This document shows positions 12,232-62,040 of a DNA stretch of 64,000 nt, in pieces. This DNA comes from Synaphobranchus kaupii (Eukaryota; Chordata; Actinopteri; Anguilliformes; Synaphobranchidae). Position 1 is the stretch's first letter. Every line of letters starts with the position of its first letter. Below the pieces are notes generated by a model. That model searched no databases. It had not been told where the DNA came from and saw only the letters and a list, made by a program, of their open reading frames with translations. Location: contig CM056378.1 in NCBI GenBank assembly GCA_029718625.1, positions 60,783,027-60,847,026 of the forward strand, given 5' to 3'. The translations under genes and the position numbers were made by a program.

Positions 12232-12262
12232 AAGTAGAGGTATGTTAATATTTTCGAATCCT

Positions 12263-28866: not shown

Positions 28867-28897
28867 GTTTGAGTTTGTGTGTGCTCCAAGCATAAAC

Positions 28898-31490: not shown

Positions 31491-31499
31491 CAGCTTGCC

Positions 31500-32764: not shown

Positions 32765-32864
32765 AGAAGAACTTTACTTTTATTTTGAAATCAATTCTTA
32801 CACGCTTACCGTAGAATGCCTAGTATATTGCGAACCAAATAAATTCGCGGCGGCTGGCTTGACC

Positions 32865-33935: not shown

Positions 33936-34154
33936 GACTAGGCTACATTGACCACGTTTCTATACATAGGCCTACATATTTGTAATTAGATGTGTTTGTG
34001 AAAAAATAAAACAATTTCCGATTAAACATTTGTCTACGTTTGATCCATCTTTCAATCAATTAGCAGGGAAGTGATCCTAGTTATGTAACCTATTTTTATT
34101 GATGTATGTGCGTATTTATTTAAGAAAATCAAAGATTGCTTAACCTTTAAACGG
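33936..34154. other. Short spacer before duplicated unit B
   Basis: AT-rich, no feature recognised. Confidence 0.3.
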
Positions 34155-34411
34155 CCGAACTTTTAAACAGTTCTTTTCCGTGATTCAAATTTTAAAAAGG
34201 GATTGAATATGTGCGCTTCCGTTAAGGGGGTGAATTCATCTCAGCCCAGTGGTGCATCCAACAGCACAACTTCAGCAGTTACACTTGGTCATGAGGTAAA
34301 CAAATAAATAATGACAGTTTACAGTGTCTTCTGAGCCAGATCAGTGACGTGAGGATAACTGAAACTAATAAACTGCACGTGAAACAGTCTTCTCCCTGTG
34401 AGACTGACAGA

Positions 34412-34647
34412 ATGAAGCGCACACAGTTGGGTAAGTACTGGCTAAGTTTCTTTTACTTAACATGAACATAACACAATTTTCACGTTCAATTGAAATTTTA
34501 TAGTTTACAGTAATTTAAGATGTATATCTATAGCTAAACACGTTTATTTTCTGGTTGTCTTGATGTTCACCAAATTCAGGAAAACATTAACGTTAATTAT
34601 CTCTCTCCTTCAGAACTTGTCTTGACCGTTTTCTGCCTGGTTCTGAG
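34412..34647 (+). pseudogene. First two exons of the small split gene, copy B
   Basis: Exon 1 (34412-34430) is ATGAAGCGCACACAGTTGG followed by GTAAGT. Exon 2 (34614-34647) lies between CTCCTTCAG and GAG|GTAAAT. Spliced, they read MKRTQLELVLTVFCLVL, a basic start followed by a hydrophobic core like a signal peptide. A hAT inserted 67 bp downstream of exon 2, and the exon-3 counterpart (37917 on) is frameshifted, so this copy cannot make the product. Function unknown. Confidence 0.35.
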
Positions 34648-34713
34648 GTAAATTAACGGAAGCGACAGCTAACGTTAACTCAGCTTGGTAGGTTGGTTTT
34701 CTATGGTTAAGGT

Positions 34714-35837: not shown

Positions 35838-36285
35838 GTTAAGGTAATATTTAAATGCCGAATAAAGTTAACGGTAAACTGGCTGTAATGATAACGTTAG
35901 TGAAATGTATTCCGAGAGAATTTAACAATATGAATTTGTTTCATTTCTTCACTTGGTCGTTACTAACGACGTTAGCTACATGCTAGCTGCTATAAACATA
36001 CACGCCAATAACAGCTATCGGCAGCTGGCTAGAGCGAGCTTGACGTTAGCTGGCTACCGTTAATTATATAATACTATCAATGATCAATAACTTGTTAGCT
36101 TATGGACGAGGGAAAAGTTTACTCTGGTGAAGTTTACTCTAGTGCCAACGTTAGCTAGCCGTTCAACGCGAGATGGAAGCTACTGTTGCTAAGTTACCGT
36201 TAGCTAAGTCGATGTAAACCAGCAGCTGAGCTGACGACGGGATAAACATACTAACAACTAACGTTATTTACGTTAAAACAACATA

Positions 36286-37816
36286 CACTACTCACAAAAA
36301 GTTAGGGATATTTGGCTTTCGGGTGAAATTTATGGAAAATGTAAGTTCACGCTACAGTGATATTATACGTATCATGAAAGTAGGGCATTTAAGTAGAAGC
36401 ATGCAATGGTGATTTCCTCATCTCAAACAATTTATTGAAACAAAAGCCAACAACAGTGGTGGGTATACCACAACAAAAATGTCAATGTCTCAATAACTTG
36501 TCATGTGCCCTTGAGCATCAATTACAGCTTGACAACGACGTCTCATGCTGTTCACAAGTCGACTTATTGTCTGCTGAGGCATGGCATCCCACTCTTCTTG
36601 AAGGGCGGCCCTCAGGTCATTGAGGTTCTGGGGTACAGAGTTACGAGCCTCTACACGGTGAGTCAGCTGATCCCATAGGTTTTCTATGGGATTCAGGTCT
36701 GGAGAAAGTGCAGGCCACTCCATTTGAGGTACCCCAGTCTCCAGCAGCCTTTCCCTAATGATGCGACCTCGATGAGCTGGAGCATTGTCGTCCATGAAGA
36801 TGAAATTAGGCCTGTGTTGTTCATGCAGGGGCACAATGACTGGATTAATGATGTTATTCAGGTAGTATGGGCTTGTCACTGTACCATTCACAAAGTGTAG
36901 GGCAGTTCTGTATTGACTAGACACACCTGCCCACACTGTAACACCGCCACCACCAAAGGGTCGTCTGGTGACAACAGTGGCTGATGCATAGCGCTCTCCT
37001 TGACGTCTCCAACATCGTTGGCGGCCATCATTTCTGCTCAACGTGAATCGACTTTCATCAGAGAACAGCACTGAGGCCCACTGGTCCCTCGTCCAGCGTA
37101 AATGCTCCCTGGCCCATGCAAGACGATGACGCCTGTGCCTGGTGGTGTGGTCAGGTACCCTTGCAGGTCGTCTAGCACGCAGACCACGCTGATGTAAACG
37201 GTTTCGAATGGTCTGACGTGACACTTGGGTGCCTCTCACCTCCCTTAAATGTGCCTGGAGTTGAGTGGCATTCATCATCCGGTTCCGCAGGGCACTGTTC
37301 ACAATGAAGCGGTCATCAGTGTGGGATGTGGCCAAAGGACGTCCACTTCTATGCCTTTCTGTGACTCTTCCAGTCTCTCTGTATCTCTGTTGCAACCTGC
37401 TGATGACACTCTGTGACACTCTAAGCTCAGTGGCCACTTCCCTCTGAGAACATCCTGTTTGAAGCCTCGCAATGGCGAGGTACTGTTGATCAATTGTTAG
37501 GTGTCGTCTTGGTCTCATGATGTCAAAATGTGAACAGCATGATGAAGAGGACTGTTTAAATACCAATTCTAATTGAACCAGGAAATTTATTGGTCGATTC
37601 ATGGATCAAACACCTGTTGTGAATTTTGCCGTTCAGCTCCTTGTTAGAGAACAGCAAGTTGTGCAAAAAGTACTGAAACATTGAATAGTTGGACATGTGC
37701 ATTCAAAAGTTTAGAGAAGGTCAAATTAATTTCACCTGTAAAGGTTATAATGCATTTTAGGTTCATCCTGAAATTTCACCCGAAAGCCGAATATCCCTAA
37801 CTTTTTGTGAGTAGTG
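36286..37816 (-). mobile_element. Complete Tc1-like transposon, copy 1 (1531 bp)
   Basis: Terminal inverted repeats CACTACTCACAAAAAGTTAG and complement, bounded by TA at 36284-36285 and 37817-37818. Inside is one intact transposase gene on minus. Inserted in unit B; unit A lacks it (ACAACATCGTTTTAACG). Same length as the copy at 58460-59990. Confidence 0.95.
36490..37518 (-). CDS. Tc1 transposase, DD34E, intact (copy 1)
   Basis: 342 residues from [20 protein letters not shown]; the frame is open 28 codons further upstream, but this Met gives the usual Tc1 length. Bipartite DNA-binding region: first [26 protein letters not shown] hinge ([10 protein letters not shown]), second [23 protein letters not shown]. 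Catalytic core: first D in [13 protein letters not shown], second D in [14 protein letters not shown], and E in [14 protein letters not shown], exactly 34 residues after the second D. The [12 protein letters not shown] glycine-rich box is present. No stops or frameshifts, so it may still be active. Cuts and inserts at TA dinucleotides. Confidence 0.95.
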
Positions 37817-38131
37817 TAGTTTTAACGTAGAATAACATAATTGATTTGAATACAATTTACACGTGTGTTATGGTAATGGTCATAGAGGAATGTTGTATAA
37901 TAATCTCTCGCCGCAGTCAGGAAGACCCAGCCAAGATGGGGAGTTCGAAAAACTGATAAAACAGTGGCTCCAAATAACGCTGGAGACTGAGTGGGAGGGA
38001 CAAGGCAGAGACCCAGAAAACACATAACAATCATTGTCACAACGTTTTCTGCATTCCAACAACGTTGTGACAATGTTACCAGAAGGTTGAACTTGAACTT
38101 ACTATTCATACTATTCATACTATTCTTACTA

Positions 38132-38388
38132 TTCATCTTACCTGCAAGCCTTAAAATGTATTATTTGTAGTGTAGAAAAACAATGTGCCTCTGGATTATG
38201 AGATGTTTCTTCTTGTCAAAGTATTTCTTTCAGGTTTAAAATTATTGATGTATGATATTAAATCATACATCAATAATTTTAAACCTGAAAGAAATACTTT
38301 GACAAGAAGAAACATCTCATAATCCACTGAGGCACATTGTTTTTCTACACTACAAATAATACATTTTAAGGCTTGCAGGTAAGATGAA
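38132..38388. repeat. Near-perfect palindrome, arms about 125 bp, 5-bp centre
   Basis: The left arm starts TTCATCTTACCTGCAAGCC and the right arm ends with its complement; the centre is ATGATATTAAATCAT near 38251-38265. The right arm is the sequence shared with unit A (16245-16349 plus 18885-18915). It is preceded by a (CTATTCATA)n microsatellite at 38102-38130. It would form a long hairpin. Confidence 0.9.
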
Positions 38389-41803: not shown

Positions 41804-42989
41804 TGGTTCAGTTCAACAAGTTACTATGACAAGGGTGATGCAGGAAAATAAACAGACCTAACAGCAAAGCATATTTGTGGTTAATGCTAATTTAGCTCAA
41901 GCAGGACGAAGAAGACAAGCAGGCTAACCTAACGTTGTCAAAAAAAGATTTCTTACCGTGAAAATATTTAATTTTTCCCCCCAGGGTTTCTGCGCTGTTA
42001 TGGTTTAGAAAGCTCCGCGCTATAATTCAGGTTTGGCAAAACTGGACTGCGGTAAAGTTAGTTTTATATTCGATGTTCGATATTCGATTTTCGGACGTCA
42101 ATAGCTCTTCAACAGAACAAGCCAATGAGCTGAAAATAACAGCTCTAAATCAAAGGAGCTCAGAGAACGCAGCAAACGCTTCGTTTGATCTTTCATCGTT
42201 ATTTTAATATTACGGAAAATCTCGTCAATAACTTCGAAATTACAAAGGTGATACAACCCAGAACAACTGTGTTATAATGTGGGGGCTTTCAGCACCAGGC
42301 CACAACATTTAATTTATCCATTAGGCCTAAGATTTATTTTTAAACAATATGTATGTGTTCGCAACGATTATTCTTCATTTTGAGGCTCGGACTGCTCAAG
42401 CCAACACGTAGGGACCGTCTAAAAAGTGCGTAATTGTTTCAGTTAAAATGTCAATCGCTTTTTTGTACGAACCATTTGTTTTAGGGTAAAGGAGATATGG
42501 AGTTACGGGCACAAGCTTTATTTTCGCGTTAATTTGGGTTCATTTAATTTTTATAAAGTTTTTTTTGTTGTGATATTACACCTACAGAAAAAGGTCAGTA
42601 GTTCTGATATGACAGCACGAACATGCTGAAAACCAATTGCATATTGATCAGGGAACTCTCTTTTTCAGATTTCCACAATAGGAATTATTAGGAATTAACT
42701 GCTGTTACCATATCAATAGATCTTAGATTAGAGATAAATGTTTCTTAGGTTATAATGTGTATACCAGTTAACTTTACCGCAGCCTATTAAGGTATGTATT
42801 GAGAACCAAAAAGCATGAGCAAAGAATTCCATTGCAATCTCGTTCAATTTCAGTTTATCTACATCTATATATTCCTGAATGCTGAGAAAAATGGTGGAGT
42901 CGAAAAGGGTTCAAGTTGACGACAACCCATGACGATACATATTTTGATCTCTTTACATAACTCTTAATCTTAATCTGTGGAAAATAATA

Positions 42990-45900
42990 GAAAAATAGGA
43001 GACTTGTGTTCAATAGCTTCCAGGACACATGGATAATAATTTAACTTCTAATCCCTCATGGGGCACACCTCTTGTAATTTTCACTATGTGCATATTTATT
43101 TTTTAATAAATATTCATGGAAATTATAATTATATTATAATGGAAAAATTATAGATGTCTATTGTTTTAACAGGAAAATAATGGATTCTTTTCAATGGATT
43201 CCAAGTCACATGGTCCAATGCCATAACAGTGATAGTAATAAATGCTACTCTTAATCCCATTTAGGGCACACGTCTTGTAATTTACACTTTGTGTATACTT
43301 ATTCTTTAATGAATATTTTAATGTAAATACTTTCTTTTCAGTAGATTCCAGGTCACATGACCCAGTGAGTCAAATCCAATGCCACATAATTCTACTCTTA
43401 ATCCCACTTCGGGCACACGTCTTGTAATTTTCACATTGTGCATGGTTGTTTTTTTATAAATATTTTAATGGAAAAGTTATACTTTCTTTTCAATAGCTTC
43501 CAGGTCACATGACCCAGTGACTAAAATCCAATGGCAAATAATTGTACTCTTAATCTCACTTCGGGCACACTTCTTGGAATTTTCACGTTGTTTATATTTA
43601 TTTTTTAATAAATATTGTAATGGAAAAATAATAGATTTCTGTTGTTTTAATAGGAAAATAATGGATTATTTTCAATAGCTTCAAAGTCACATGATCCAAT
43701 GACATTATGCTAATAGTAATAAATTCTACTCTTGATCCCACTTCGGGCACACTTCTTGTAATTTTCACATTGTGCATGGTTATTTTTTAATAAATATTTT
43801 AATGGAAAAGTTATACTTTCTTTTCAATAGCTTCCAGGTCACATGACCCAGTGACTCATATCCAATGGCACATAATTCTACTCTTAATCTCACTTCGGGC
43901 ACACTTCTTGGAATTTTCACGTTGTTTATATTTATTTTTTAATAAATATTGTAATGGAAAAATAATAGATTTCTGTTGTTTTAATAGGAAAATAATGGAT
44001 TATTTTCAATAGCTTCCAAGTCACATGATCCAATGACATTATGCTAATAGTAATAAATTCTACTCTTAATCCCACTTCGGGCACACTTCTTGTTATTTTC
44101 ATATTGTGCATGGTTATTTGTTAATAAATATTTTAATGGAAAAGTTATACTTTCTTTTCAATAGCTTCCAGGTCACATGACCCAGTGACTCATATCCAAT
44201 GGCACATAATTCTACTCTTAATCACACTTCGGGCACACTTCTTGAAATTTTCACGTTGTTTATATTTATTTTTTAATAAATATTTGAATGGAAAAATAAT
44301 AGATTTCTGTTGTTTTAATAGGAAAATAATGGATTCTTTTCAATAGCTTCCAAGTCACATGATCCAATGACATTATGCTAATAGTAATAAATTCTACTCT
44401 TAATCCCACTTCGGGCACACATCTTGTAATTTTCACATTGTGCATGTTTATTTTTTAATAAATATTTTAATGGAAAAGTTATACTTTCTTTTCAATAGCT
44501 TCCAGGTCACATGACCCAGTGACTCAAATCAAATGGCATATAATTCTACTCTTAATCACACTTCGGGCACACTTCTTGTAATTTTCACTTTGTGCGTGTT
44601 TATTTTTTAATAAATATTTTAATGGAAAAATAATAGATTTCTGTTGTTTTAATAGGAAAATAATGGATTCTTTTCAATAGCTTCCAAGTCACATGATCCA
44701 ATGACATAACAGTGATAGCAATAAATACTACTCTTAATGCCTCTTCGGGCACACTTCTTGTAATTTTCACATTGTGCATGGTTATTTTTTAATAAATAGT
44801 TTAATGGAAAAGTTATACTTTCTTTTCAATAGCTTCCAGGTCACATGACCCAGTGACTCATATCCAATGGCACATAATTCTACGCTTAATCACACTTCGG
44901 GCACACTTCTTGTAATTTTCACTTTGTGCGTGTTTATTTTTTAATAAATATTTTAATGGAAAAATAATAGATTTCTGTTGTTTTAGTAGGAAAATAATGG
45001 ATTATTTTCAATAGCTTCCAAGTCACATGATCCAATGACATTATGCTAATAGGAATAAATTCTACTCTTAATACCACTTCGGGCACACTTCTTGTAATTT
45101 TCACATTGTGCATGGTTATTTTTTAATAAATATTTTAATGGAAAAGTTATACTTTCTTTTCAATAGCTTCCAGGTCACATGACCCAGTGGCTCAAATCAA
45201 ATGGAATATAATTCTACTCTGAATCCCACTTTGGGCACACTTCTTGGAATTTTCACGTTGTTTATATTTATTTTTTAATAAATATTTTAATGGAAAAATA
45301 ATAGATTTCTGTTGTTTTAGTAGGAAAATAATGGATTCTTTTCAATAGCTTCCAAGTCACATGATCCAATGACATTATGCTAATAGGAATAAATTCTACT
45401 CTTAATCCCACTTCGGGCACACTTCTTGTAATTTTCACATTGTGCATGGTTATTTTTTAATAAATATTTTAATGGAAAAGTTATACTTTCTTTTCAATAG
45501 CTTCCAGGTCACATGACCCAGTGACTCAAATCAAATGGCATATAATTCTACTCTTAATCACACTTCGGGCACACTTGTTGTAATTTTCACTTTGTGCGTG
45601 TTTATTTTTTAATAAATATTTTAATGGAAAAATAATAGATTTCTGTTGTTTTAATAGGAAAATAATGGATTATTTTCAATAGCTTCCAAGTCACATGATC
45701 CAGTGACATAACAGTGATAGGAATAAATACTACTCTTAATCCCTCTTCGGGCACACTTCTTGTAATTTTCACATTGTGCATGGTTATTTTTTAATAAATA
45801 GTTTAATGGAAAAGTTATACTTTCTTTTCAATAGCTTCCAGGTCACATGACTCAGTGACTCGTATCCAATGGCACATAATTCTACTCTTAATCACACTTC

Positions 45901-46690
45901 GGGCACACTTCTTGTAATTTTCACTTTTTGCGTGTTTATTTTTTAATAAATATTTTAATGGAAAAATAATAGATTTCTGTTGTTTTAATAGGAAAATAAT
46001 GGATTATTTTCAATAGCTTCCAAGTCACATGATCCAATGACATTATGCTAATAGGAATAAATTCTACTCTTAGTCACACTTCGGGCACACTTCTTGGAAT
46101 TTTCACGTTGTTCATATTTATTTTTTAATAAATATTTGAATGGAAAAATAATAGATTTCTGTTGTTTTAATAGGAAAATAATGGATTATTTTCAGTAGAC
46201 CCAATGATTTAAAGCCAATACCAAATAATTCTACTCCTTATCCCACATCAAGCACACCTCTTTATATTCTCACTATTTACTTCTTTATGTTTTTATAAAT
46301 ATTTTAATGTCACATAGGAAAATGTTGGATTCTTTTCAATATATTCCAAGTCACATGACCCAATGACTTACAACCAATACCAAATAATTTGACTGCTAAT
46401 ACCACATAGGGCATAACTCTTGGAATTGTCAATATGTACATACTTATTTTTTAACAAATATTTGAATGGAAAAGTAATAATTTATTTTCAATAGTGTCCA
46501 GGTCACAAGACAAAGTGACTCATATACAATGGCATATAATTCTACTCTTAATCCCAGATAGGGCACATCTCTTGTAATTTTGACCGTGTATAATCAATAT
46601 TTTAATTGAGAAATAAAAGATTTCTGTTTTCTTAATAGGAGAATAATGGATTATTTTCAATAGCTTCCAAATCACATGACCCAATGACAT
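42990..46690. repeat. Left-arm satellite array, 334-bp dimer
   Basis: The landmark GAAAAGTTATACTTTC recurs at 43471, 43805, 44139, 44473, 44807, 45141, 45475 and 45809, always 334 bp apart. Each 334-bp unit is a dimer of two related monomers of about 152 bp (CAGGTCACATGACCCAGTG type) and 182 bp (CAAGTCACATGATCCAATG type). The two edges of the array are more diverged than the middle. Confidence 0.95.
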
Positions 46691-46698
46691 ACTGTATA

Positions 46699-46931
46699 CA
46701 GTCAAGCCGGAAAGTCTGCACCTTCTCCACGTTTTATTACATTACAGACTTATACTACAATAGATTGAGTTCATTTTTTGCCTCAAACATCTACACACAA
46801 TAGCCAATAATGACAAAGTGAAAGCAGGTTTTTAGAAAATATGCAAAAAATTAACTCTATTGTAGAATAGGTCTGTAACATAATAAAACGTGGAGAAGGT
46901 GAAAGGGGTGTCAGACTTTCCGGCTTGACTG
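46699..46931. mobile_element. Mariner/Tc1-type MITE, 233 bp
   Basis: CAGTCAAGCCGGAAAGTCTG at the left and complement at the right, TA on both sides (46697-46698 and 46932-46933). Short palindrome-like arms, no ORF. Inserted in the satellite edge of the giant element's left arm. Confidence 0.9.
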
Positions 46932-47090
46932 TAACTTATAATAAAAAATGCTACTCTTAATTCCACATAGGGCACAGCTCTTGGAATTCTCAATATGTGC
47001 ATATTTATTTTTTTATAAATATTCAAATGGAAAAATTATATATTTCTGTTTTAATAGGAAAATAATGGATTATTTAATATAACGCGGACA

Positions 47091-47197
47091 GAAGGAGAAC
47101 ATGCAAACTCCACACAGAAAGGCCCTCGGCCGGGATTCAAACTCAGTGCTCTCTTGCTGTAGGGCGACAGCACTATCCACTGCACCACCGTGCCGCA
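47091..47197 (-). mobile_element. tRNA-derived SINE fragment
   Basis: On minus: GCGGCACGGTGGTGCAGTGG (box A region GGTGCAGTGGATAG) and GAGTTTGAATCCCGG (box B), then GTGGAGTTTGCATGTTCTCC. This is a familiar fish SINE head, not a functional tRNA: no acceptor-stem pairing was seen. Confidence 0.75.
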
Positions 47198-47205
47198 CGG
47201 GCACC

Positions 47206-47755
47206 CAGGGCCGGCCCGTCCTATAGGCCATATAGGTGGTCGCCTAGGGCCCCTGAAAGGGTTAAGGGCCCCCTCATAGTTAAAAAAAAAAAATTTAATA
47301 AAAATGTATATTAAAAAATATATATTTTTTTTACAAATAATAATCGCCACGTTGCTCAACGTCCGAGAGAAACATTGTGACTGGTGAAATGAGGTGTCTG
47401 CAAAGATGATTGAATGATGTCTGGCGAATCACCTAATTTCACCAGTCACCTGACTGGGGTGTGCGTGGGCTGGGCTGGGTGGGCTAGATCGTCAACTGAG
47501 AAATATACTGTGATTTATACTGAGAAATATACTGTGATTTATACTGAGAAATATACTGTGATTTATACTGAGAATTATACTGTGTGAGCTATACTGAGAA
47601 ATATACTGGGAACTACTGTGGGCTATACTGCCAAATATACATTATAGCACTATAAATAAATATTTTAAAAGTAATATCATTGTTGCCTGTCCGATTTTAT
47701 TTGTATTATTATTTGCATTTTCAAGATCTCGCCTAGGGCCGGACCCATGGGCCCC
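47206..47755. mobile_element. Degenerate hAT element of the GGGCCGGCCC type
   Basis: Starts CAGGGCCGGCCCGTCC with AGGGCCCC repeats inside, like the element at 34714. The right part (CGCCTAGGGCCGGACCCATG, about 47727-47746) is a diverged terminus. The interior has a 24-bp tandem repeat (ACTGAGAAATATACTGTGAT..) at 47503-47600 and no ORF. Confidence 0.6.
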
Positions 47756-48111
47756 TATCAAATCCTCTAATCAGGGAGCGCAGGCTTTGAAGAAAAATAT
47801 AAACGTTAGTCTTATGGATATGTCGGCTAAGTGAGGATTAGGTACAATGTGTATTTTCTGAATCCAGTGGTTTCAACAGTCAATGCCCTTGTTAAAACGT
47901 TCGGCACTCTGAATACTGAACATAAGCGATATTGTGTGCTAAAACCCCTCACTTAACCTACATTCAAAATATATTTTACGTTATTTCATTTCATAATTAT
48001 TATTAAAAATGACAATCATCAATTAAATCATCAAATTCTCTGATAGTTAAATCAAAAAGTAACCTGGTGGATCAACCAACAAGTCAAAACAAAACAAGTC
48101 TAAATCAGTTC
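47756..48111. other. No recognisable feature
   Basis: AT-rich spacer; no ORF or terminal repeat seen. Confidence 0.35.
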
Positions 48112-48115
48112 TTAA

Positions 48116-48715
48116 AGGTTGTATCAGCGATTTTGGGTGGAAACATAAATGATTTTTTTTTTCCCTCACGATCCGCTAGCTGCCCGCCCCATAAGCAGGC
48201 CGTCAAAAAACCGCGTCTCTGTAGGCAGCCTATGCTCCGAGATCGTACACAAAAACAAATGGTACTACCAACCACTCAAAACCAAAATAAACAGTATTCC
48301 AACCAATCACAATGATCTGCACAAACGCTAATACTCTTATCTCGCTGAAATCTTGACGGATTTACAAACGGTTTGGTTTCTTACAAACGTTATTAACGTG
48401 GTTATAATTCTGGATGCTTGAACACTATTTTTTTAAAACATAACATAATTATTCATAAGTATGTTTGTTTGGGATTTCGCTTCAGAAGTGACGTCACGTT
48501 TGTGCAGATCATTGTGATTGGTTGGAATACTGTTTATTTTGGTTTTGAGTAGTTGGTAGTACCATTGTTTTTGTGTACGATCTCGGAGCATAGGCTGCCT
48601 ACAGAGACGCGGTTTTTTGACGGCCTGCTTATGGGGCGGGCAGCTAGCGGATCGTGAGGAAAAATCAGATGAATGTGATCATTTATGTTTCCACCCAAAA
48701 TCGCTGATACAACCT
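48116..48715. mobile_element. TTAA-type MITE, 600 bp, with inverted arms over 200 bp
   Basis: TTAA at 48112-48115 and 48716-48719. Ends AGGTTGTATCAGCGATTTTG and complement. The arms match for about 210 bp (GCTAGCTGCCCGCCCCATAA.., CACAATGATCTGCACAAAC). Fits Kolobok or piggyBac-type TTAA targeting; no ORF. Confidence 0.9.
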
Positions 48716-48719
48716 TTAA

Positions 48720-49830
48720 GGTTAAATAATTTTATTAAATGAAAAAACAGTCAATTAGAATAATGACTTAAAATCATACATTCAATAATGAATGTAGGCT
48801 GACTACTTATAATTTACAAAAAGGAAGACATTAAACCCGACATTATTTAGAAGATACCAGTAAAGAGAGACTGATAAGCCAGAAATTGCCAAAGTATTTA
48901 CCCTCCTCCAGCTGAACAGGAACAAAAGGAAATGCACAAGGAACCACCACCACAAAATAAAAGACAAACTTAATTCACCAACTCCAGACTGAACTGAGGC
49001 TTCTTTCCTTCGGCCCCCATAAATACCTTACTCTACAGGAAGGGCATCCCTGCCCTGATTGGGTTAATGCGTGAGAAAGGGGGGGGGGGTGTTATTTAGG
49101 ACAAAGACTTGAGGATTCCCTTTGATATTTGTGGGGGTGAGTGAGAGAGAGAGACAGAGACAAACATAAGGTGAGGGGGGAGAGGGAGCAAGAGATGGAG
49201 GAGCCAGATAGTTTTACCTATATCTAAACATTAGATATCCTACAGGTATATACACACATGTTACATATCATTTTCTGTAAAAAACTGTCTAATTTCTTCC
49301 TTTGAGTAGCTTTGCCATGTAGCGATAAAACTCCCATTACAATTTCTGAGTTTTGTTCTGTTATTGTGCATTGCATTTTCTCATTGTTTACTAAATTGGG
49401 TTTTCCCGCCAGTCATCAATAAGTTGATTTTAACCAATAACTGAGTGAGTGTGTTATTACACAGGAAAGGTCACATGTATGAGTTTAGTACATAAAATAA
49501 ATAAAATAGAGTAAAATATCACTCTGAATTCAAAGAAATAGATAATCATTGAGTCATTGATAATCAAACCACCCACTTTAGTTTATGGTACTTGATTGTT
49601 TTGTGTTGTGTTAACTATTTCAAGGGTTTTGATTATAATTCACTCTATTCTTATGAATGTGCTATACTATTGGGGTTCACAGTGTATATAGTCACTTTTT
49701 GTAACGAAAACACCATTGCATGAAATATTGGGGTGTATGGATCTCCATACCAAATTGCATGCTAATCTGATCTGATTAGTCTTATTGTCTAACACAGAAG
49801 TAATGACAGAATGATGTTCATTGTGTGGGT
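48720..49830. other. Unassigned part of the giant element's centre
   Basis: No supported ORF. A G run at 49080-49089 and a GA-rich tract at 49137-49200 stand out. If the element encodes a transposase, earlier exons of the PHD gene would be expected here, but I could not identify them. Confidence 0.4.
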
Positions 49831-50171
49831 CTATAACATTGACTGAGGGTGATCAAGCAACTATTTGGGTAAGTGGTGTTGTATTCACTGATTTGAACAC
49901 ATATAATAATAAAAGTAAGAAGCAATAATAAAACTCTGGTGAAGCAAATTGTGCATTTGTAAAGTGTACAAGTGCATCGAATAAAACAGTCTTTAATAAC
50001 AGTAATACCTTCCTGGATCAGTTACTCTGGATTTTTATGGTAATAAATTGTATAACATCATGACTAGTCATGCTAGCCAAACCACTGTTGTACTGTAGTT
50101 TCCCAGTAAACACACTATTCTTTGATGTAGAATAATGTTAAACTGATGAAATCTCTGCCGTGCCTTTACAG

Positions 50172-50282
50172 GTTGCTTGTGATCACTGCAACAGGTGGTT
50201 CCATAGACTATGCATCGGCATGAGCCTGGAGACTTATGTCCATGTGAAAAGAATGAAATGGGAGTGCAGATATTGCACATGA
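50172..50282 (+). CDS. Terminal exon encoding the second half of a PHD finger
   Basis: After the acceptor TGCCTTTACAG the exon encodes 36 residues and a stop: VACDHCNRWFHRLCIGMSLE, TYVHVKRMKWECRYCT. CDHC, HRLC and CRYC with W-F-H and the WEC near the end are the C-terminal ligands and aromatic core of a PHD zinc finger, normally a histone-tail reader. A consensus donor at 49869 (ACTATTTGG|GTAAGT) precedes it in matching phase 0, so QATIW|VACDHC would join; the first CxxC pair must lie in an earlier, unidentified exon. A C-terminal PHD finger suggests a transposon-encoded protein that targets chromatin. That role is inference; the finger itself is clear. Confidence 0.7.
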   Translation, partial: VACDHCNRWFHRLCIGMSLETYVHVKRMKWECRYCT

Positions 50283-51240
50283 AATGACAAAAAAAAAATA
50301 GTTGTCACTAACTTTCTTGTGTAAAATATGTCAAAATGGAACTAATTAATGTAAATGGAAGTGGATTAATGGAAGTAATGGAAGTGGATTACAATGCAAG
50401 CTTACATGTAACATTGTTATTCACTTGCATTACTTCCAACAAAGTTAAAGCTGGAGTAGGCAACTTTCTCAACGGTCGCAAATGTTGTGAAAACATTTCG
50501 CAATTCATAACACCCATCAGAGTTAGCTATCTAACGTCACCTGATGGTTCACAAAATATTTTTTATTCATGTAAATTGTTGAACAAGGCTACCATCTATC
50601 CCAGACAACATTACAGTTGCCTGATACGCCTAGCCTCAATTCGGTACTCTGCTGGACGTTTACAATAGGATGTTTTCATAACTGATAAATAAAGTAGAAA
50701 ATAAAATGAAGGAGCTCATCTCTCAGTGAGCCAGTTTTACTGAAAAAATACAATTGACAGTGATGGCTAGCGAAATTAAATAGAAAGCCAATTTTATAAA
50801 GACCTCAGATTCTGTATATAAACTTATGCCAGGCTGTAGTCCTGCTCGGCGATGCAGATAGGATTGGAAAGTCTCTTATAACCCTAGCTGTAGGCCTACT
50901 GTTATGTGAATGCGCAAAGTCAATGTCATTGTTGGATTGGTTCACGACGGGAACAGGCCTCTCTCTTTGATTGGTTCACGTCATGAGCCACTTTGTTTTG
51001 AAAGCAAGAATTTGGGCCGAATTTTTTCCCTATATCTGCCATTTAAACTACCAAAGTTTAAATGTGCACTATGCAAGATTTTTAGCCTTGTTGTGATCCT
51101 GTGTTTACAATCAAATAAGTCCTCCATTCTAAACCCCGCCCACTCACCTCCGTTGAGAGCAAGAAAAGCTTTCTACAGTCTAAGCTATGCAAGAAACACA
51201 CTTGAACACAGCAAGAAAAATGTTAAGCGAAGTTAAAATG
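50283..51240. other. Unassigned centre of the giant element with a dispersed repeat
   Basis: Contains TTTAAATGTGCACTATGCAA then GATTTTTAGCC at 51057-51087, the start of a common fish repeat, and a direct pair of GATTGGTTCACG words near 50936-50985. No gene supported. Confidence 0.4.
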
Positions 51241-51414
51241 AAAATAACATTTTTAGCTGTATATGCATTTTTCTACATGCATTGTTCCTCTCCGACAAAC
51301 GCAGTTGTAATTGGGGATTCTATCATTCGCAACCTAAATGTTGCCAGTGGTTTTAACCCCTTTGCGCAGATGCCTAGTGACCAGGGTGCCAGGGCCAAGA
51401 TTTTTCTCAACTGA
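51241..51414 (+). pseudogene. LINE ORF1-type SGNH (esterase-like) fragment
   Basis: The frame contains SSPTNAVVIGDSIIRNLNVA. The GDS motif after a hydrophobic strand, followed by IIRN, is block I of SGNH hydrolase-like domains found in ORF1 proteins of fish CR1/L2-type LINEs. The frame ends after about 35 more residues without further SGNH blocks, so this is a scrap. A hydrophobic stretch precedes it (ITFLAVYAFFYMHC) and could be coincidental. Confidence 0.4.
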
Positions 51415-52560
51415 AACATTTGTTGCTCCTGCAGCCAAACTATGAGTGGAAACAAGAAACTCCATGTTGTAGCTTTATTAGTATATGATTAGTGACAATT
51501 CTGCCGAATATGGAGTTTACAAGTGTCACTACTTTTGCATAGCCAGTCCATTTAACAAGCAACCCCCCAACCAGTCTTGCCTGCAACTATACCTACCCAT
51601 GCGTGACACAATGGACAATAGCATTTGTGTGAGTTCATAAAAAAAAAATTATAATTTTACCACCAAAAATTGGAATCCGTCATAGCAACAAGATAAAGCC
51701 AACAATAGCCCGTTCGTTTGCCAAAATAGCTGTGAAAAACCAAAATGCTAAATAAACCTGTGCAATTATTGTCATTATCATTATACCACATCATTCTATA
51801 TCAATATCTGCGACGAGATATGAAATAAATATACAATCCTATCCTTGGTTTTTCACAGAGATGTTCCTTTCAAAATTCAGTGGTCATTTATTGTCTTGGA
51901 CAAGCTGTTTGAGATATACACACCAGTTTAGAACGCAATTAAACTATCTGGAACGTCTGCACGCAGAACCCCATATACTGTACCTACAGCTCTGAAGTAT
52001 TTCACATCATTCCAGTTTTATTCACAATTTTCTTATCCGAGGACAGTATATCCTTCTCAACAAAGTTTGCAATTTCTTATTGGATGCTTTGAACAATAAA
52101 TTACAGCCCAGCATAACAGCATTTAAAATTTTATCAGTGTATGATGCAAACAGCTACAGAAAACGCATCCTCGTCCTCGAGATGAAAGTAATACTACTTG
52201 TATTATGCGGTTCTTCTCGCTGGATACGTACTGTATGTACGTTAGTTTTTCCACTGAATCACTGTCTTGTCCAGTAGGCTATGTTAGATATTATGTTCGC
52301 ATTTTGAGTGCATTTCACACATTGTAGTGTATGCATTCGTTGGTGGTTCAGTCATGTTTTATGTTTGATGTACCAATTTTCATTGAAGCTAGAACATTAG
52401 GCAGAATGAACATTGGAATGGAATTAGAACATTCCAATTTACTGTGTGCTGATATGTGCTAGATGAATGTAAATTCATCTTCAATCAACTCCCATAAATA
52501 AAGGCTGATAAATACTTAAATATTATTATTATATTAGTGTATTAGTATATACGATTCAAT
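51415..52560. other. Unassigned, no gene
   Basis: AT-rich sequence leading into the right satellite arm. No feature recognised. Confidence 0.35.
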
Positions 52561-52574
52561 GATTGTAAATTATT

Positions 52575-55500
52575 TGCAATTGCTTTCGAGTCATTGGGTC
52601 ATGTGACATGGAATCTATTGAAAATAATTTATGATTTTTCCAGTAAACTTTTTTGAAAAATGTATAAAGTAAAAAATGTACTATGTATAAAGAAGCAGAT
52701 ATTGAGAATACAAACAGCGGTACCCTATGTGGGATTAGCAGTAGACATTTTTATTATTCGTTTTATGTTATTGGATCATGTGATGTGGAAGCTATTGAAA
52801 ATAATCCATTATTTTCCAATTATTAAAAATAAAATGTACAAATAGTCAAAATTACAGCATGTGTGCCCTATGTGTGATTAAGAGTAGAATTATGTGCCAT
52901 TGGATTTGAGTCACTTGTTCTTGTGACCTGGAAGCTATTGAAAAGAAATTATAACTTTTCCATTAAAATATTTATTAAAATATAACCTTGCACAATGTGA
53001 AAATTACAAGAAGTGTGCCCGAAGAGGGATTAAGAGTAGTATTTATTCCTATCACTGTTATGTCATTGGATCATGTGACTTGGACGCTATTGAAAAGAAA
53101 CCATAATTTTCCTATTAAAACAGCAGAAATCTATTATTTTTCCATTCAAATATTTATTAAAAAATAAATCTAAACAATTGAAAATTCCAAGAAGTGTGCC
53201 CGAAGTGTGATAAAGAGTAGAATTATTTGGCATTGGATTTTAGTCACTGGGTCATGTGACCTGGAAGCTATTGAAAAGAAAGTATAACTTTTCCATTAAA
53301 CTATTTATTAAAAAATAACGATGCACAATGTGAAAATTACAAGAAGTGTGCCCGAAGAGGGATTAAGAGTAGTATTTATTCCTATCACTGTTATGTCATT
53401 GGATCATGTGACTTGGAAGCTATTGAAAAGAATCCATTATTTTCCTATTAAAACAACAGAAATCTATTATTTTTCAATTCAAATATTTATTACAAAATAA
53501 ATATAAACAACTTGAAAATTCCAAGAAGTGTGCCCGAAGTGGGATTAAGAGTAGAATTTATTACTATTAGCATAATGTCACTGGATCATGTGACTTGGAA
53601 TCTATTGAAAAGAATCCATTATTTTCCTATTAAAACAACAGAAATCTATTATTTTTCCATTAAAATATTTATTAAAAAATAAACACGCAAAAAGTGAAAA
53701 TTACAAGAAGTGTGCCCGAAGTGTGATAAAGAGTAGAATTATTTGGCATTGGATTTTAGTCACTGGGTCATGTGACCTGGAAGCTATTGAAAAGAAAGTA
53801 TAACTTTTCCATTTAAATATTTATTAAAAAATAACCATGCACAAGGTGAAAATTACAAGAAGTGTGCCCGAAGTGGGATTAAGAGCAGAATTTATTACTA
53901 TTAGCATAATGTCACTGGATCATGTGACTTGGAAGCTATTGAAAAGAATCCATTATTTTCCTATTAAAACAACAGAAATCTATTATTTTTCCATTAAAAT
54001 ATTTATTAAAAAATAAACACGCAAAAAGTGAAAATTACAAGAAGTGTGCCCGAAGTGTGATAAAGAGTAGAATTATTTGGCATTGGATTTTAGTCACTGG
54101 GTCATGTGACCTGGAAGCTATTGAAAAGAAAGTATAACTTTTCCATTAAACTATATATTAAAAAATAACCATGAACAATGTGAAAATTACAAGAAGTGTG
54201 CCCGAAGAGGGATTAAGAGTAGTATTTATTCCTATCACTGTTATGTCATTGGATCATGTCACTTGGAAGCTATTGAAAAGAATCCATTATTTTCCTATTA
54301 AAACAACAGAAATCTATTATTTTTCCATTAAAATATTTATTAAAAAATAAACACGCAAAAAGTGAAAATTACAAGAAGTGTGCCCGAAGTGTGATTAAGA
54401 GTAGAATTATGTGCCATTGGATATGAGTCACTGGGTCATGTGACCTGGAAGCTATTGAAAAGAAAGTATAACTTTTCCATTTAAATATTTATTAAAAAAT
54501 AACCATGCACAACGTGAAAATTACAAGAAGTGTGCCCGAAGTGGGATTAAGAGCAGAATTTATTACTATTAGCATAATGTCACTGGATCATGTGACTTGG
54601 AAGCTATTGAAAAGAATCCATTATTTTCCTATTAAAACAACAGAAATCTATTATTTTTCCATTAAAATATTTATTAAAAAATAAACACGCAAAAAGTGAA
54701 AATTACAAGAAGTGTGCCCGAATTGTGATAAAGAGTAGAATTATTTGGCATTGGATTTTAGTCACTGGGTCATGTGACCTGGAAGCTATTGAAAAGAAAG
54801 TATAACTTTTCCATTAAACTATATATTAAAAAATAACCATGAACAATGTGAAAATTACAAGAAGTGTGCCCGAAGAGGGATTAAGAGTAGTATTTATTCC
54901 TATCACTGTTATGTCATTGGATCATGTCACTTGGAAGCTATTGAAAAGAATCCATTATTTTCCTATTAAAACAACAGAAATCTATTATTTTTCCATTAAA
55001 ATATTTATAAAAAAATAACCATGCACAATGTGAAAATTACAAGAAGTGTGCCCGAAGTGGGATTAAGAGTAGAATTTATTCCTATTAGCATAATGTCACT
55101 GGATCATGTGACTTGGAAGCTATTGAAAAGAATCCATTATTTTCCTATTAAAACAACAGAAATCTATTATTTTTCCATTACAATATTTATTAAAAAATAA
55201 ATATAAACAACGTGAAAATTCCAAGAAGTGTGCCCGAAGTGAGATTAAGAGTAGAATTATTTGGCATTGGATTTTAGTCACTGGGTCATGTGACCTGGAA
55301 GCTATTGAAAAGAAAGTATAACTTTTCCATTAAAATATTTATTCAAAAATAACCATGCACAATGTGAAAATTACAAGAAGTGTACCCGAAGTGGGATTAA
55401 GAGTAGAATTTATTACTATTAGCATAATGTCATTGGATCATGTGACTTGGAAGCTATTGAAAAGAATCCATTATTTTCCTATTAAAACAACAGAAATCTA

Positions 55501-56960
55501 TTATTTTTCCATTAAAATATTTATTAAAAAATAAACACACATAAAGTGAAAATTACAAGAAGTGTGCCCGAATTGGGATTAAGAGTAGAATTATGTGCCA
55601 TTGGATATGAGTCACTGGGTCATGTGACCTGGAAGCTATTGAAAAGAAAGTATAACTTTTCCATTAAACTATTTATTAAAAAATAACCATGCACAATGTG
55701 AAAATTACAAGAAGTGTGCCCGAAGAGGGATTAAGAGTAGTATTTATTCCTATTACTGTTATGTCATTGGATCATGTGACTTGGAAGCTATTGAAAAGAA
55801 TCCATTATTATCCTATTAAAACAACAGAAATCTATTATTTTTCAATTCAAATATTTATTACAAAATAAATATAAACAACTTGAAAATTCCAAGAAGTGTG
55901 CCCGAAGTGGGATTAAGAGTAGAATTTATTACTATTAGCATAATGTCATTGGATCATGTGACTTGGAAGCTATTGAAAATAATCCATTATTTTCCTATTA
56001 AAACAATAGAAATCTATTATTTTTCCATTAAAATATTTATTAAAAAATAACCATGCACAATGTGAAAATTACAAGAAGTGTGCCCGAAGAGGGATTAAGA
56101 GTAGTATTTATTCCTATCACTGTTATGTCATTGGATCATGTGACTTGGAAGCTATTGAAAAGAATCCATTATTATCCTATTAAAACAACAGAAATCTATT
56201 ATTTTTCAATTCAAATATTTATTACAAAATAAATATAAACAACTTGAAAATTCCAAGAAGTGTGCCCGAAGTGGGATTAAGAGTAGAATTTATTACTATT
56301 AGCATAATGTCATTGGATCATGTGACTTGGAAGCTATTGAAAATAATCCATTATTTTCCTATTAAAACAATAGAAATCTATTATTTTTCCATTAAAATAT
56401 TTATTAAAAAATAAACACGCACAAAGTGAAAACTACAACAAGTGTGCCCTAAGTGTGATTAAGAGGAGAATTATATGCCATTTGATTTGAGTCACTGGGT
56501 AATGTGACCTGGAAGCTATTGAAAAGAAAGTATAACTTTTCCATTAAAATATTTATTTTAAATAAATATGCACAAAGTTAAAAATTACAAGAAGTGTGCC
56601 CTAAGTGGGATTAACAGTAGAATTATTTGCCATTGGATTAGAGTCACTGGGTCATGTGACCTGGAAGCTAGTGAAAATAAAGTATAACTTTTCCATTAAA
56701 ATATTTATAAAAAAATAAACATGCACAAAGTTAAAATTACAAGAAGTGTGCCCGAAGTGGGATTAAGAGTAGAATTTATTACTATCACTGTTATGTCATT
56801 GGATCATGTGACTTGGAATCCATTGAAAATAATTAATTATCTTCCTATTAAAAAAATAGACATCTATAATTTTTTCATTATAATATAATTATAATTACCA
56901 TTAATATTCATAAAAAAATAAATATGCACAAAGTGAAAATTACAAGAGGTGTGTCCTATG
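52575..56960. repeat. Right-arm satellite array, inverted, irregular dimer pattern
   Basis: The landmark AGTATAACTTTTCC occurs at 53281, 53797, 54131, 54465, 54799, 55315, 55649 and 56529. Spacings are 516, 334, 334, 334, 516, 334 and 880, which equal 152 + n x 182 with n = 2, 1, 1, 1, 2, 1 and 4. So the same two monomers as in the left arm are present in reverse orientation, with extra copies of the 182-bp monomer. Confidence 0.93.
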
Positions 56961-58008
56961 TGGGATTAGAAGTAAAATTATTATCCATATGTCCTGGAAG
57001 CTATTGAAAACAAATATACTATTTTTCTATTATTTTATATTTTCTACAGATTAAGATTAAGATAAGGAGTTATGTAAAGAGACCAAATATGTATTGCTTG
57101 TCGGTTGAGGTCCCAAGTCAACTTTAGTCCTTTTCGACTTCACTCTTTTTCCCACCATTCAGGAATAAATAGATGTAGATAAACTGAAATTGAACGAGAT
57201 TACAATGGAATTCATTGCTCATGCTTTTTGGTGCTCAATACATACCTTAATAGACTGCGGTAAAGTTAACTGGTATACACATTATAACCAAAGAAACATT
57301 TATCTCTAATCTAAGATCTATTGATATGGTAACAGCAGTTAATTCCTAATAAATCCCTGTTGTGGAAATCTGAAAAAGAGAGTTCCCTGATCAATATGCA
57401 ATTGGTTTGCAGCATGTTTGTGCTGTCATATCAGAGCTATTGACTTTTTTCTGTAGCCTAGGTGTAATATCACAAAAAAATTACTTTTTATAAAAATTAA
57501 ATGAACCGAAATTAACGCGAAAATAAAGCTTGTCCCCTTAACTCCATATTTCCTTTACCCTAAAACAATTGGTTCGTACAAAAAAGCGATTGAGATTTTA
57601 ACTGAACCAATTACGCACTTTTTAGACGGTCCCTACGTGTTGGCTTGAGCAGTCCGAGACTCAAAATGAAGAATTATCGTTGCGAACATCTAAATATCGT
57701 TTAAAAATAAATATTAGGCCTAATGGATAAATTAAATGTTGTGCCCTGGTGCTGAAAGGCCCCACATTATAACACAATTGTTCTGGATTGTGTCACCTTT
57801 GTCATTTCGAAGTTATTGACGAGATTTTTTGTAATATTAAAATAACGATGAAAGATCAAACGAAGCGTTTGCTGCGTTCTCTGAACTCCTCTGATTTAGA
57901 GCTGTTATTTTCAGCTCATTGGCTTGTTCTGTTGAAGAGCTATTGACGTCCGAAAATCGAATATCGAACATCGAATATAAAACTAACTTTACCGCAGTCA
58001 AAAACTGG

Positions 58009-58457: not shown

Positions 58458-58459
58458 TA

Positions 58460-59990
58460 CACTACTCACAAAAAGTTAGGGATATTCGGCTTTCGGGTGA
58501 AATTTCAGGATGAACCTAAAATGCACTATAACCTTTACAGGTGAAATTAATTTGACCTTCTCTAAACTTTTGAATGCACATGTCCAACTATTCAATGTTT
58601 CAGTACTTTTTGCACAACTTGCTGTTCTCTTACAAGGAGCTGAACGGCAAAATTCACAACAGGTGTTTGATCCATGAATCGACCAATAAATTTCCTGGTT
58701 CAATTAGAATTGGTATTTAAACAGTCCTCTTCATCATGCTGTTCACATTTTGACATCATGAGACCAAGACGACACCTAACAATTGATCAACAGTACCTCG
58801 CCATTGCGAGGCTTCAAACAGGATGTTCTCAGAGGGAAGTGGCCACTGAGCTTAGAGTGTCACAGAGTGTCATCAGCAGGTTGCAACAGAGATACAGAGA
58901 GACTGGAAGAGTCACAGAAAGGCATAGAAGTGGACGTCCTTTGGCCACATCCCACACTGATGACCGCTTCATTGTGAACAGTGCCCTGCGGAACCGGATG
59001 ATGAATGCCACTCAACTCCAGGCACATTTAAGGGAGGTGAGAGGCACCCAAGTGTCACGTCAGACCATTCGAAACCGTTTACATCAGCGTGGTCTGCGTG
59101 CTAGACGACCTGCAAGGGTACCTGACCACACCACCAGGCACAGGCGTCATCGTCTTGCATGGGCCAGGGAGCATTTACGCTGGACGAGGGACCAGTGGGC
59201 CTCAGTGCTGTTCTCTGATGAAAGTCGATTCACGTTGAGCAGAAATGATGGCCGCCAACGATGTTGGAGACGTCAAGGAGAGCGCTATGCATCAGCCACT
59301 GTTGTCACCAGACGACCCTTTGGTGGTGGCGGTGTTACAGTGTGGGCAGGTGTGTCTAGTCAATACAGAACTGCCCTACACTTTGTGAATGGTACAGTGA
59401 CAAGCCCATACTACCTGAATAACATCATTAATCCAGTCATTGTGCCCCTGCATGAACAACACAGGCCTAATTTCATCTTCATGGACGACAATGCTCCAGC
59501 TCATCGAGGTCGCATCATTAGGGAAAGGCTGCTGGAGACTGGGGTACCTCAAATGGAGTGGCCTGCACTTTCTCCAGACCTGAATCCCATAGAAAACCTA
59601 TGGGATCAGCTGACTCACCGTGTAGAGGCTCGTAACTCTGTACCCCAGAACCTCAATGACCTGAGGGCCGCCCTTCAAGAAGAGTGGGATGCCATGCCTC
59701 AGCAGACAATAAGTCGACTTGTGAACAGCATGAGACGTCATTGTCAAGCTGTAATTGATGCTCAAGGGCACATGACAAGTTATTGAGACATTGACATTTT
59801 TGTTGTGGTATACCCACCACTGTTGTTGGCTTTTGTTTCAATAAACTGTTTGAGATGAGGAAATCACCATTGCATGCTTCTACTTAAATGCCCTACTTTC
59901 ATGATACGTATAATATCACTGTAGCGTGAACTTACATTTTCCATAAATTTCACCCGAAAGCCAAATATCCCTAACTTTTTGTGAGTAGTG
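58460..59990 (+). mobile_element. Complete Tc1-like transposon, copy 2 (1531 bp)
   Basis: CACTACTCACAAAAAGTTAG ends and complement, TA at 58458-58459 and 59991-59992. Same length and nearly the same sequence as copy 1, opposite orientation, 20.6 kb apart. Inserted about 450 bp outside the giant foldback element. Confidence 0.95.
58758..59786 (+). CDS. Tc1 transposase, DD34E, intact (copy 2)
   Basis: 342 residues, with the same start reasoning as copy 1. The only amino-acid difference I see is near the C-terminus, MRRHCQAV here versus MRRRCQAV in copy 1. The two HTH motifs, GRP hinge and the D, D, E triad ([24 protein letters not shown]) are unchanged. Both copies being intact and almost identical implies that the family moved recently, or that one copy derives directly from the other. 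Confidence 0.95.
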
Positions 59991-59992
59991 TA

Positions 59993-62040
59993 TGTAGGAA
60001 ACTTCATCCGTACACAGAGGGATATTGAAGCTACAACATTATATAATCCTGACCATGTAGGACTATTCAGGAGGTTTGGGGGAGGGGCTAAAGCGCTTCA
60101 AAAACAGCATGTTATCTAACCCTAACCCTCATATGACAACAATCCAGATGTATTTGGTAGCTAAAATAAGGTCTACACTAGTGCAAATCCAAACACAATG
60201 ACTGTGATTAGGAAAAACATCAATACCTTGAAGGATTTTTTTCCACCAAATAAGCAAAAAAATCAAAAGACTTAATTTTATCCAGGCTGGAGTCTCAAAG
60301 GGTCTCAGAAACTACACCTCAAAGAGGCTCTAACCAGACAGAGGTGAAAATTAAACTTTGTCGTAGGACAAAACTAAAGACGTTTTTGGAAAGGCCTTGA
60401 CCTGGAGAATAACGTTTGTCAATTATTTTGCCCTGACACCCCAGGGGACTCAGTAGCGCCCCCTAGAAGGGCAAAACTGGCCAAACTTCAAATGCTTCTA
60501 ATTCTGGAACCAATGGACATATCGGGTAGATATTTAACAGGATGATTAACTAACTAGTCTTTCATAAATAATGTCAGAGCCAGCCTTCAAGCTCTAACAG
60601 AAGGGCCTGAATAAAACGTTTGATACTTAATCATTTGATACTTTGATGATTCAATTATATGATCAATTGGGATCTTAACTGATGCTATATTGAACATAAA
60701 TTCAGGTCAATAGGATTAGTATTTTTTTCGTTATTGGTACTAATAGTTTAGAACTACAATTCCCCAAAAACCAGAGCTCTACGTAATGATGGCCTGTGAA
60801 AAGATGGCGCCGTCTGTAGTCCGTTTAGGGTTAGGGTTCGGATAATAAATATATAGCCTACGGCTAATCTGGGTCGCCCCATGTAGGGGACAGTATTAAA
60901 ATGAATTGAGATTGTGGGATTTTGACCATATCCGACATAAACTGTTTGCTTTTTTTGTGACTGAATAAACCTTTCCACATGTTTTTTGTGTCCCTAACAT
61001 ATTTAGCGGTTATCGCCATCAACCAGTAGCTACTCAAAAGTCACTCGTCTGGTAAACAAAATTCACTAGCCGGCTAGCTAGCTAACAACCGAAAAGTAGC
61101 ATAGTAGCCAAGCCCACAGTAACACCTCTAAATTTCGTTCTATGTAGCACGAAAACAGTCTGAGAAATGCTAGCATTGAAAATGCATGGGTTTAAATTTC
61201 GTTCTGTGTAGCACGATAAAAGTCGGACAATCGTGCTCCGGGTGACGATTCAATAGATTAATTGTCGTGACTATGAGCATGAAAAAGCGTGAGACCGGGT
61301 TGATTTTTCACCTAACATAACAAAGTGTAGGCTACCATTGTGCTATTGTGTGGTAAATTTATTAAACATCCTCACATAAATTTTTGGAAATACTGACTTA
61401 TTTCTTTGTGATGGAGTTCATTTCACCCCTAGGGGAAATTATATTTTTCTAAATGCTATTTTACAGTCCCTTAAATACTGAATTCAGGGGAGGAGACGCT
61501 GCCTTTACGGTTTTCCCTGCCCAATTCTGGCAGTTTCTCCAATCCTGGATTTGGCTTTTAACGGAACAGGGTTTTTTTAATGAACTAAGTCAGGTTTTCA
61601 AAATTTATGTGATTATTTTTAAATTTAATTTGTAGCCATGACATTGTTCACCCAACGCCCTCTGCTCTTCTCCTCACCCCTGTCCCTTATCTTCCCTACA
61701 AACACCCCCCCCCCCCCCGCACATCTTGTCCTCTCCAGCCATGCCAATCCATGGCCTTCTTTGCGTATTTCTCCCCACGCTGGATGTAGCTGTCTAGTAT
61801 GTACATTTTGGGGAAACAGTAATAAAAAGTTTCAATTAATTATAAAACTTGTTTTTTTATTGAAGGGTTCATTGTTTGCATATGTCATACAGTGGTATAA
61901 GGAGAAATTGCTAATTTTTTTTCGTTTGTAAAGACTAAATAATCAAATGTACACCATTCAAAATTATGAATCATGAATAAGGGAAACATTTTTATTCTTC
62001 GATATGCTGCGTTTCATTCACAGCAAGTTTAATCACCGTC
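59993..62040. other. About 2 kb without a supported gene
   Basis: 61131-61215 has a direct repeat of AAATTTCGTTCT[AG]TGTAGCACGA. 61689-61700 is a C run. 61637-61931 is open for 97 codons but proline-rich and low-complexity. Telomere-like GTTTAGGGTTAGGGTTCGG at 60824-60842 is too short to matter. Confidence 0.4.

Follow-up and report, generated by a model that had tools for sequence, protein, structure and literature searches.

A satellite-armed inverted-repeat unit enclosing a PHD-finger gene tail, possibly a Rehavkus-related foldback transposon of a teleost

Results

Architecture of the inverted-repeat unit

The window (the whole 64,000-nt stretch of DNA analysed) contains an inverted-repeat unit of 15,955 bp at 42045-57999 (Table 1), with arms of ~5.03 kb on the left, including a 0.23-kb nested MITE, and ~5.41 kb on the right. 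Self-BLAST and reading of the flanks bear out the inverted repeat of the original prediction and place its ends within 1 bp of the predicted 42046..57998; weaker satellite homology runs inward to ~47075 on the left and to ~52590 on the right. Each arm consists of a non-tandem terminal domain of ~1.1 kb on the outside with satellite behind it. The arm plan of foldback elements, in which a middle is enclosed by long inverted arms that contain tandem repeats, is present, here in a single copy.

By self-BLAST, 42045-43824 matches 57999-56187 in inverted orientation (90.1% identity over 1,817 columns). Over the outer ~1.2 kb, the arm-to-arm alignment comprises 1,119 identities, 74 mismatches, and 33 gap columns, and identity drops inward: the first 108 bp are free of substitutions, followed by 93.5-95.4% up to 740 bp and 91-92% on to ~1.2 kb. 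Random placement of the 35 substitutions that occur within 740 bp of the end left the first 108 bp clear in 0.37% of 100,000 trials. The subterminal 7-bp triple repeat has only two sites in the window (up to 2 mismatches allowed) and none in 100 shuffles. Self-BLAST and a terminus scan found no further copies with the same ends in the rest of the window. Exact-pattern searches with the terminus and satellite in viral contigs, and with a subterminal 32-mer in prokaryote contigs, gave 0 matches, which has little bearing on a fish sequence.

Table 1. Coordinates of the unit and its parts (positions in the window)
Feature	Position	Strand	Remarks
Left flank CAAAACTG, candidate target-site duplication	42037..42044	.	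1 mismatch to right flank
Left terminal (flanking) domain	42045..43114	+	108 outermost bp identical to right arm; satellite-like from ~43026
Left terminus GACTGCGGTAAAGTTA	42045..42060	+	16-bp motif scan
Subterminal 7-bp direct repeats ATTCGAT GTTCGAT ATTCGAT	42068..42088	+	right-arm copy 57956-57976
Left-arm inner inverted terminus copy	42769..42784	-	1 mismatch; closes 740-bp outer module
Left satellite array	43115..47075	+	near-strict 152/182 alternation (334-bp double unit), degenerate inner edge
Nested MITE in left satellite	46697..46933	.	TA at both edges, ends CAGTCAAGCCGGAAAG
Middle domain	47076..52589	.	nested MITE, repeats, PHD gene tail; no Pfam transposase domain
Nested palindromic MITE in middle	48111..48720	.	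TTAA at both edges; inverted repeat over 225 columns, 94.7%
Candidate exon, first PHD half (CSLCGSITLTEGDQATIW)	49798..49868	+	followed by GTAAGT; start inferred from AG acceptor
Terminal exon, second PHD half and stop codon	50172..50282	+	Pfam PHD match
Two AATAAA poly(A)-type signals (50688, 50700)	50688..50705	+	3' of PHD exons
Right satellite array	52590..56886	-	same two unit classes, other order
Right terminal (flanking) domain	56887..57999	-	self-BLAST and arm alignment
Right-arm inner inverted terminus copy	57253..57268	+	perfect; closes 747-bp outer module
Right terminus, 16 bp	57984..57999	-	motif scan
Right flank AAAAACTG, candidate target-site duplication	58000..58007	.	compared with left flank

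Four copies of the 16-bp terminus are present in the window, two of them marking the ends and one lying inverted within each arm; shuffling gives an expectation of 0.40, and four matches were reached in 0 of 100 shuffles. No flanking duplication of its own was seen by eye at either outer module. The bases next to the inner copies, also judged by eye, do not repeat the outer flanks, and the modules thus do not look separately inserted. The satellite units were rejected as copies of the terminal motif, as only the four terminus copies match it within 3 mismatches.

Flanking sequences

With the terminus set at GACTGCGG, the flanks CAAAACTG and AAAAACTG are 8 bp long and differ by one mismatch; with the terminus set at ACTGCGG, the flanks CAAAACTGG and CAAAAACTGG are 9 and 10 bp long and differ by an indel of one A. 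One register outward, a perfect 6-bp repeat, AAAACT, adjoins the ends, but the outermost bases (G and A) are left unpaired. When 200,000 pairs of positions were drawn at random, 0.07% gave an 8-bp match with no more than one mismatch at a fixed register; over nine registers and lengths of 8-10 bp the figure was 0.86%, and for the one-indel form 0.3%. No perfect 5-bp direct repeat adjoins the ends at registers -4 to +4.

The inner terminus copies have a G ahead of (A/G)CTGCGG, so that GACTGCGG is slightly preferred as the real terminus, and with it a duplication of 8 bp that carries one substitution. Just as economical is a duplication of 9-10 bp in which one A was gained or lost. The near-duplicate flanks of the original prediction are present, but its length of 9-10 bp is not the only fit, 8 bp with one substitution serving as readily.

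Composition of the satellite arrays

Each arm holds ~20 satellite units, mostly of 152 and 182 bp, the two classes being ~80% alike. The right array has runs of 182-bp units, whereas the left alternates almost strictly. Units were compared over 40 of the 43 anchor intervals (those of 326, 333, and 409 bp were dropped), with two 203-bp units put in the longer class. Mean identities by class were 0.916 and 0.923 between arms and 0.915-0.923 within arms; for the longer class, the values were 0.923 between arms, 0.923 within the left arm, and 0.920 within the right. Of the 40 units, 28 are most similar to a unit of their own arm (a count given without a chance expectation), indicating that any exchange between the arms is incomplete, and the outermost units of both arms are mutual nearest relatives (0.911).

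This pattern fits arrays already in place when the arms turned into inverted copies of each other, with local duplication and some exchange thereafter, and speaks against the artefact of a copied contig. The near-duplicate flanks and the differing unit order together argue for transposition of the unit rather than for inversion in place or duplication of a contig. With the shared, bounded ends, they support the earlier view that this is probably a transposed unit and not a chance satellite inversion.

A split PHD finger in the middle domain

The middle domain contains fish-type repeats. The MITE nested in the left satellite is presumably of the Tc1/mariner type. Six-frame read-through of the middle against Pfam, a collection searched without a Rehavkus profile, gave no transposase domain, including none of Mutator or P type, in agreement with the original prediction and as is to be expected of a non-autonomous copy. 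Apart from a PHD finger, only sub-threshold matches were obtained (EF-hand_2, DUF2949, Fz, and DUF3099).

The terminal exon alone scores 33 bits in Pfam PHD. A scan of the 3.1 kb on its 5' side for C-x2-C stretches that run into an in-phase splice donor gave one candidate, 49815-49868, with Trp as the last codon before GTAAGT. Such a candidate appeared in 18% of 2,000 first-order Markov sequences, and in 0.6% when Trp was required, a condition set only after the candidate was known. Joined at consensus splice sites, the two exons, which would be spliced together, cover positions 1-47 of 47 in Pfam PHD (E 8e-10, 39 bits). The exon for a chromatin-reader domain originally noted in the centre is thus a PHD exon, though one that encodes the second half only, the finger being completed by the candidate upstream exon. 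An in-frame TGA at 49812-49814, immediately 5' of the first Cys codon, indicates that this copy is broken.

Among solved structures, those closest to the joined PHD finger are host chromatin proteins, KDM5B (E 8.7e-07) first, and KAT6A, with 43 sequences at E <= 0.01; such a set would not be expected to contain Rehavkus-type transposases. Two protein searches with the second exon (1 candidate each, none scoring) found no relatives. The PHD exons may be the tail of a transposon's own gene.

Other elements in the window

The window is dense in transposable elements. A second satellite-armed palindrome, at 27476-32864, has inverted arms of ~1.38 kb (92%) in which a 168-bp unit is repeated ~7.7 times each; they enclose an open frame of 319 codons for a Tc1-type transposase (28938-29897). 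It shows no clear TA flanks, and ~30 bp beyond the left arm there is a near-copy of the end motif. Across 84% of its length, the Tc1-type frame shares 95% identity with a protein of the eel Synaphobranchus kaupii, and the other named matches among the 120 listed (of 4,292) are from fishes and arthropods. Tc1 elements can pass between species, so that this match is only an indication of the host. The fish-type repeats point in the same direction, and the window is probably teleost DNA.

Two further Tc1-type elements, 36281-37818 and 58458-59995, lie in opposite orientation and each hold an open frame of 371 codons (stop to stop); their identity of 99.74%, together with the open frames, suggests recent activity. 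Another repeat is present in two copies, 14964-16349 and 34154-38356, in pieces 90-98% alike, and the copy lacking the Tc1 element, at 15967/15969, looks like the empty site of 36281-37818. A LINE on the minus strand (20632-25637) has long open frames: one of 1,266 codons encodes endonuclease, reverse transcriptase, and RNase H, and the one ahead of it, of 415 codons, has no Pfam match. An open frame at 8577-8999 encodes a domain like the P2X7-receptor C-terminus (Pfam P2RX7_C, E 1.9e-05) among the mobile elements, and a 426-bp tandem repeat at 12261-13250 comprises 2.3 copies, 98% alike.

Comparison with described elements

Long modular inverted repeats with tandem subrepeats, shorter than those found here, are known from the TU elements of sea urchin and the FB foldbacks of Drosophila. 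Both Drosophila and sea urchin are named among foldback hosts in the accessible part of one account (PMC4079207). In the same account, Tetris is described as a flanking domain, ~220-bp tandem repeats, and an inner domain, with 8-10-bp duplications (PMC4079207). Tetris/DAIBAM elements of the Drosophila virilis group share with the present unit this three-part arm (with a flanking domain of up to 866 bp there) and the lack of a transposase in the described copies, and their 8-10-bp duplications have an imperfect candidate counterpart here. The Tetris tandem repeat also shares a stretch with the flanking domain (PMC4079207), and the terminal domain here turns satellite-like toward its inner end. 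The arms of Tetris/DAIBAM reach at most 1,735 bp, in contrast to ~5 kb here, and the accessible Tetris descriptions do not mention a PHD finger. Galileo, of the P superfamily in Drosophila, likewise has long TIRs with internal repeats, including ~210-bp tandem repeats in one subfamily and short internal inverted repeats in some groups, but is described with 7-bp duplications and a P-type transposase, again with no PHD finger mentioned in the portions available.

The long TIRs that characterize Mutator-like elements are found in the present arms, and the candidate for their 8-11-bp duplication is imperfect. Plant Mutator-like elements with multiple TIRs, as far as the available account goes, have, like the present unit, inner terminal copies without recognisable duplications, and some hold gene fragments (PMC3310237); their inner TIRs differ in being mostly tandem and alike over at least 100 bp (PMC3310237), where the unit described here has a 16-bp inverted copy.

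Rehavkus elements, a group allied to Mutator, are characterized, in the accessible text of a survey, by 9-bp duplications, TIRs of 26-400 bp, a PHD finger, and a minisatellite, and are recorded from arthropods and annelids only (PMC6446971). Among the closest likenesses is Rehavkus-1_TC of Tribolium: according to the available description, both have inverted termini with satellite arrays (a 164-bp unit there, 152/182 here) and a PHD finger, both are long (9.5 kb there, 16 kb here), and a 9-bp duplication there corresponds to an imperfect 8-10-bp one here. Rehavkus-1_TC has mostly five and eight units, compared with ~20 per arm here. The TIRs listed for Rehavkus are much shorter than the present ~5-kb arms, the hosts are insects and annelids instead of a probable teleost, and the transposase core is missing here, the likeness being one of description only. 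The descriptions used do not give the position of the PHD finger within Rehavkus transposases, whether C-terminal or other. In one paper, as far as available, Mutator and Rehavkus are tallied jointly as occurring in animals.

The Rehavkus literature covered, which took in few subscription papers and not Repbase, describes no fish element, and a search for vertebrate Mutator-like elements or satellites in fish transposons, likewise covering few subscription papers, had no such element among the matches listed. The statement in the original prediction that arms made mostly of a tandem array are rare is weakened, as satellite-bearing inverted termini are published in Tetris, Galileo, and Rehavkus-1_TC (as far as their accessible descriptions show) and another palindrome in the window is built likewise.

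Discussion

The conserved outermost ends, the symmetric tandem-repeat arms, and the near-duplicate flanks make 42045-57999 look like a foldback transposon. With roughly even confidence, we interpret it as a decayed, non-autonomous foldback DNA transposon, probably of a teleost and most likely related to Rehavkus/Mutator. A Rehavkus-like origin is the leading reading, at about even odds, its affiliation drawn from published descriptions; it is suggested by the combination of inverted termini filled with satellite, a gene whose 3' end encodes a PHD finger, and a candidate 8-10-bp duplication. The single known copy, the imperfect flank duplication, and the missing transposase domain count against it, as do the likeness of the PHD finger to host proteins among solved structures, the protein searches that gave no relative, the incomplete exchange between the arms, the shorter TIRs and non-vertebrate hosts listed for Rehavkus, and the doubt cast on vertebrate Mutator-like elements (PMC6446971). 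The original suggestion that the unit is non-autonomous and belongs to a little-described superfamily is plausible; Rehavkus is one candidate. In such an element, a transposase supplied in trans would have bound the matching ~100-bp ends, and a cut-and-paste insertion would have left the 8-10-bp duplication. The satellite would then have expanded within the arms through unequal exchange, and exchange between the arms may have kept them alike, as the similarities among units suggest. The PHD exons would be left over from the 3' end of a gene that the element once carried, probably as the tail of its transposase, the catalytic part of which was presumably lost, with later insertions now sitting in the middle.

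The main alternative, a possible but less probable one, is that the unit belongs to a different superfamily of non-autonomous foldback elements (Mutator-like, P/Galileo-like, or one more that makes 8-bp duplications) and acquired its PHD exons by capturing the 3' end of a host gene. The arms are laid out as in Tetris and Galileo, going by the available accounts, Mutator-like elements are reported there to be prone to take up host gene fragments (PMC6446971, PMC5225508), and the nearest solved PHD fingers belong to host proteins; against capture, the sole coding domain recognised in the middle is the very one reported, in the portions available, from Rehavkus, and it stands alongside satellite-filled inverted termini. 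Among particular superfamilies, hAT agrees with an 8-bp duplication but was rejected on its ends. These are of the CAG type in hAT, unlike those found here. P elements also make 8-bp duplications. Zisupton occurs in fish and, by the available account, makes 8-bp duplications; it was rejected on a middle that holds no supporting Pfam transposase, and the word PHD is absent from that account. A RAG-like/Transib transposon, in which a RAG2-like partner carries a PHD finger and the duplication is 5 bp, was rejected because no 5-bp duplication fits the ends.

Readings that dispense with a single transposed unit fare worse. It is unlikely that a stretch of chromosome with satellite, surrounding part of a host gene, was duplicated in place and inverted without transposition: only one copy is shown, the flanks are one base apart, and palindromic satellites can form by other routes, but the arms stop at a 16-bp sequence that recurs inverted within each arm, the ends are more conserved than the remainder, and the flanks are near-duplicates. 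Independent insertion of two ~740-bp miniature elements that share their ends, facing opposite ways and flanking a segment of satellite and gene, would account for each outer module having its own inverted ends; this is very unlikely, given that the arm homology extends far inward of both modules and that the modules lack a flanking duplication by eye, the outermost flanks alone matching. Long tandem arrays are hard to assemble, and one arm might have been copied in reverse; we consider such an artefact highly improbable, as the arms, once past the 108 identical bp, differ by ~5-9% within their outer 1.2 kb and the order of units is unlike, near-strict 152/182 alternation on the left as opposed to runs of 182 on the right.

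On the preferred Rehavkus-like reading, a wider proposal, which we hold only tentatively and doubt more than we credit, is that a vertebrate (teleost) branch of Rehavkus/Mutator exists, with PHD-tailed transposases and termini that are largely satellite, and that it supplies fish genomes with dispersed satellite. Whether Mutator-like elements are truly absent from vertebrates was left open by a survey of 2019, in its accessible text, which considered the vertebrate Repbase entries probably misidentified (PMC6446971). A Rehavkus-like fish element, if the reading is true, would be a counterexample to that absence. Such an element would, in addition, extend the growth of satellite inside transposon termini to a vertebrate. 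The exact ends (GACTGCGGTAAAGTTA and the 108-bp terminus common to both arms), together with the gene tail, make the vertebrate question searchable in fish genomes.
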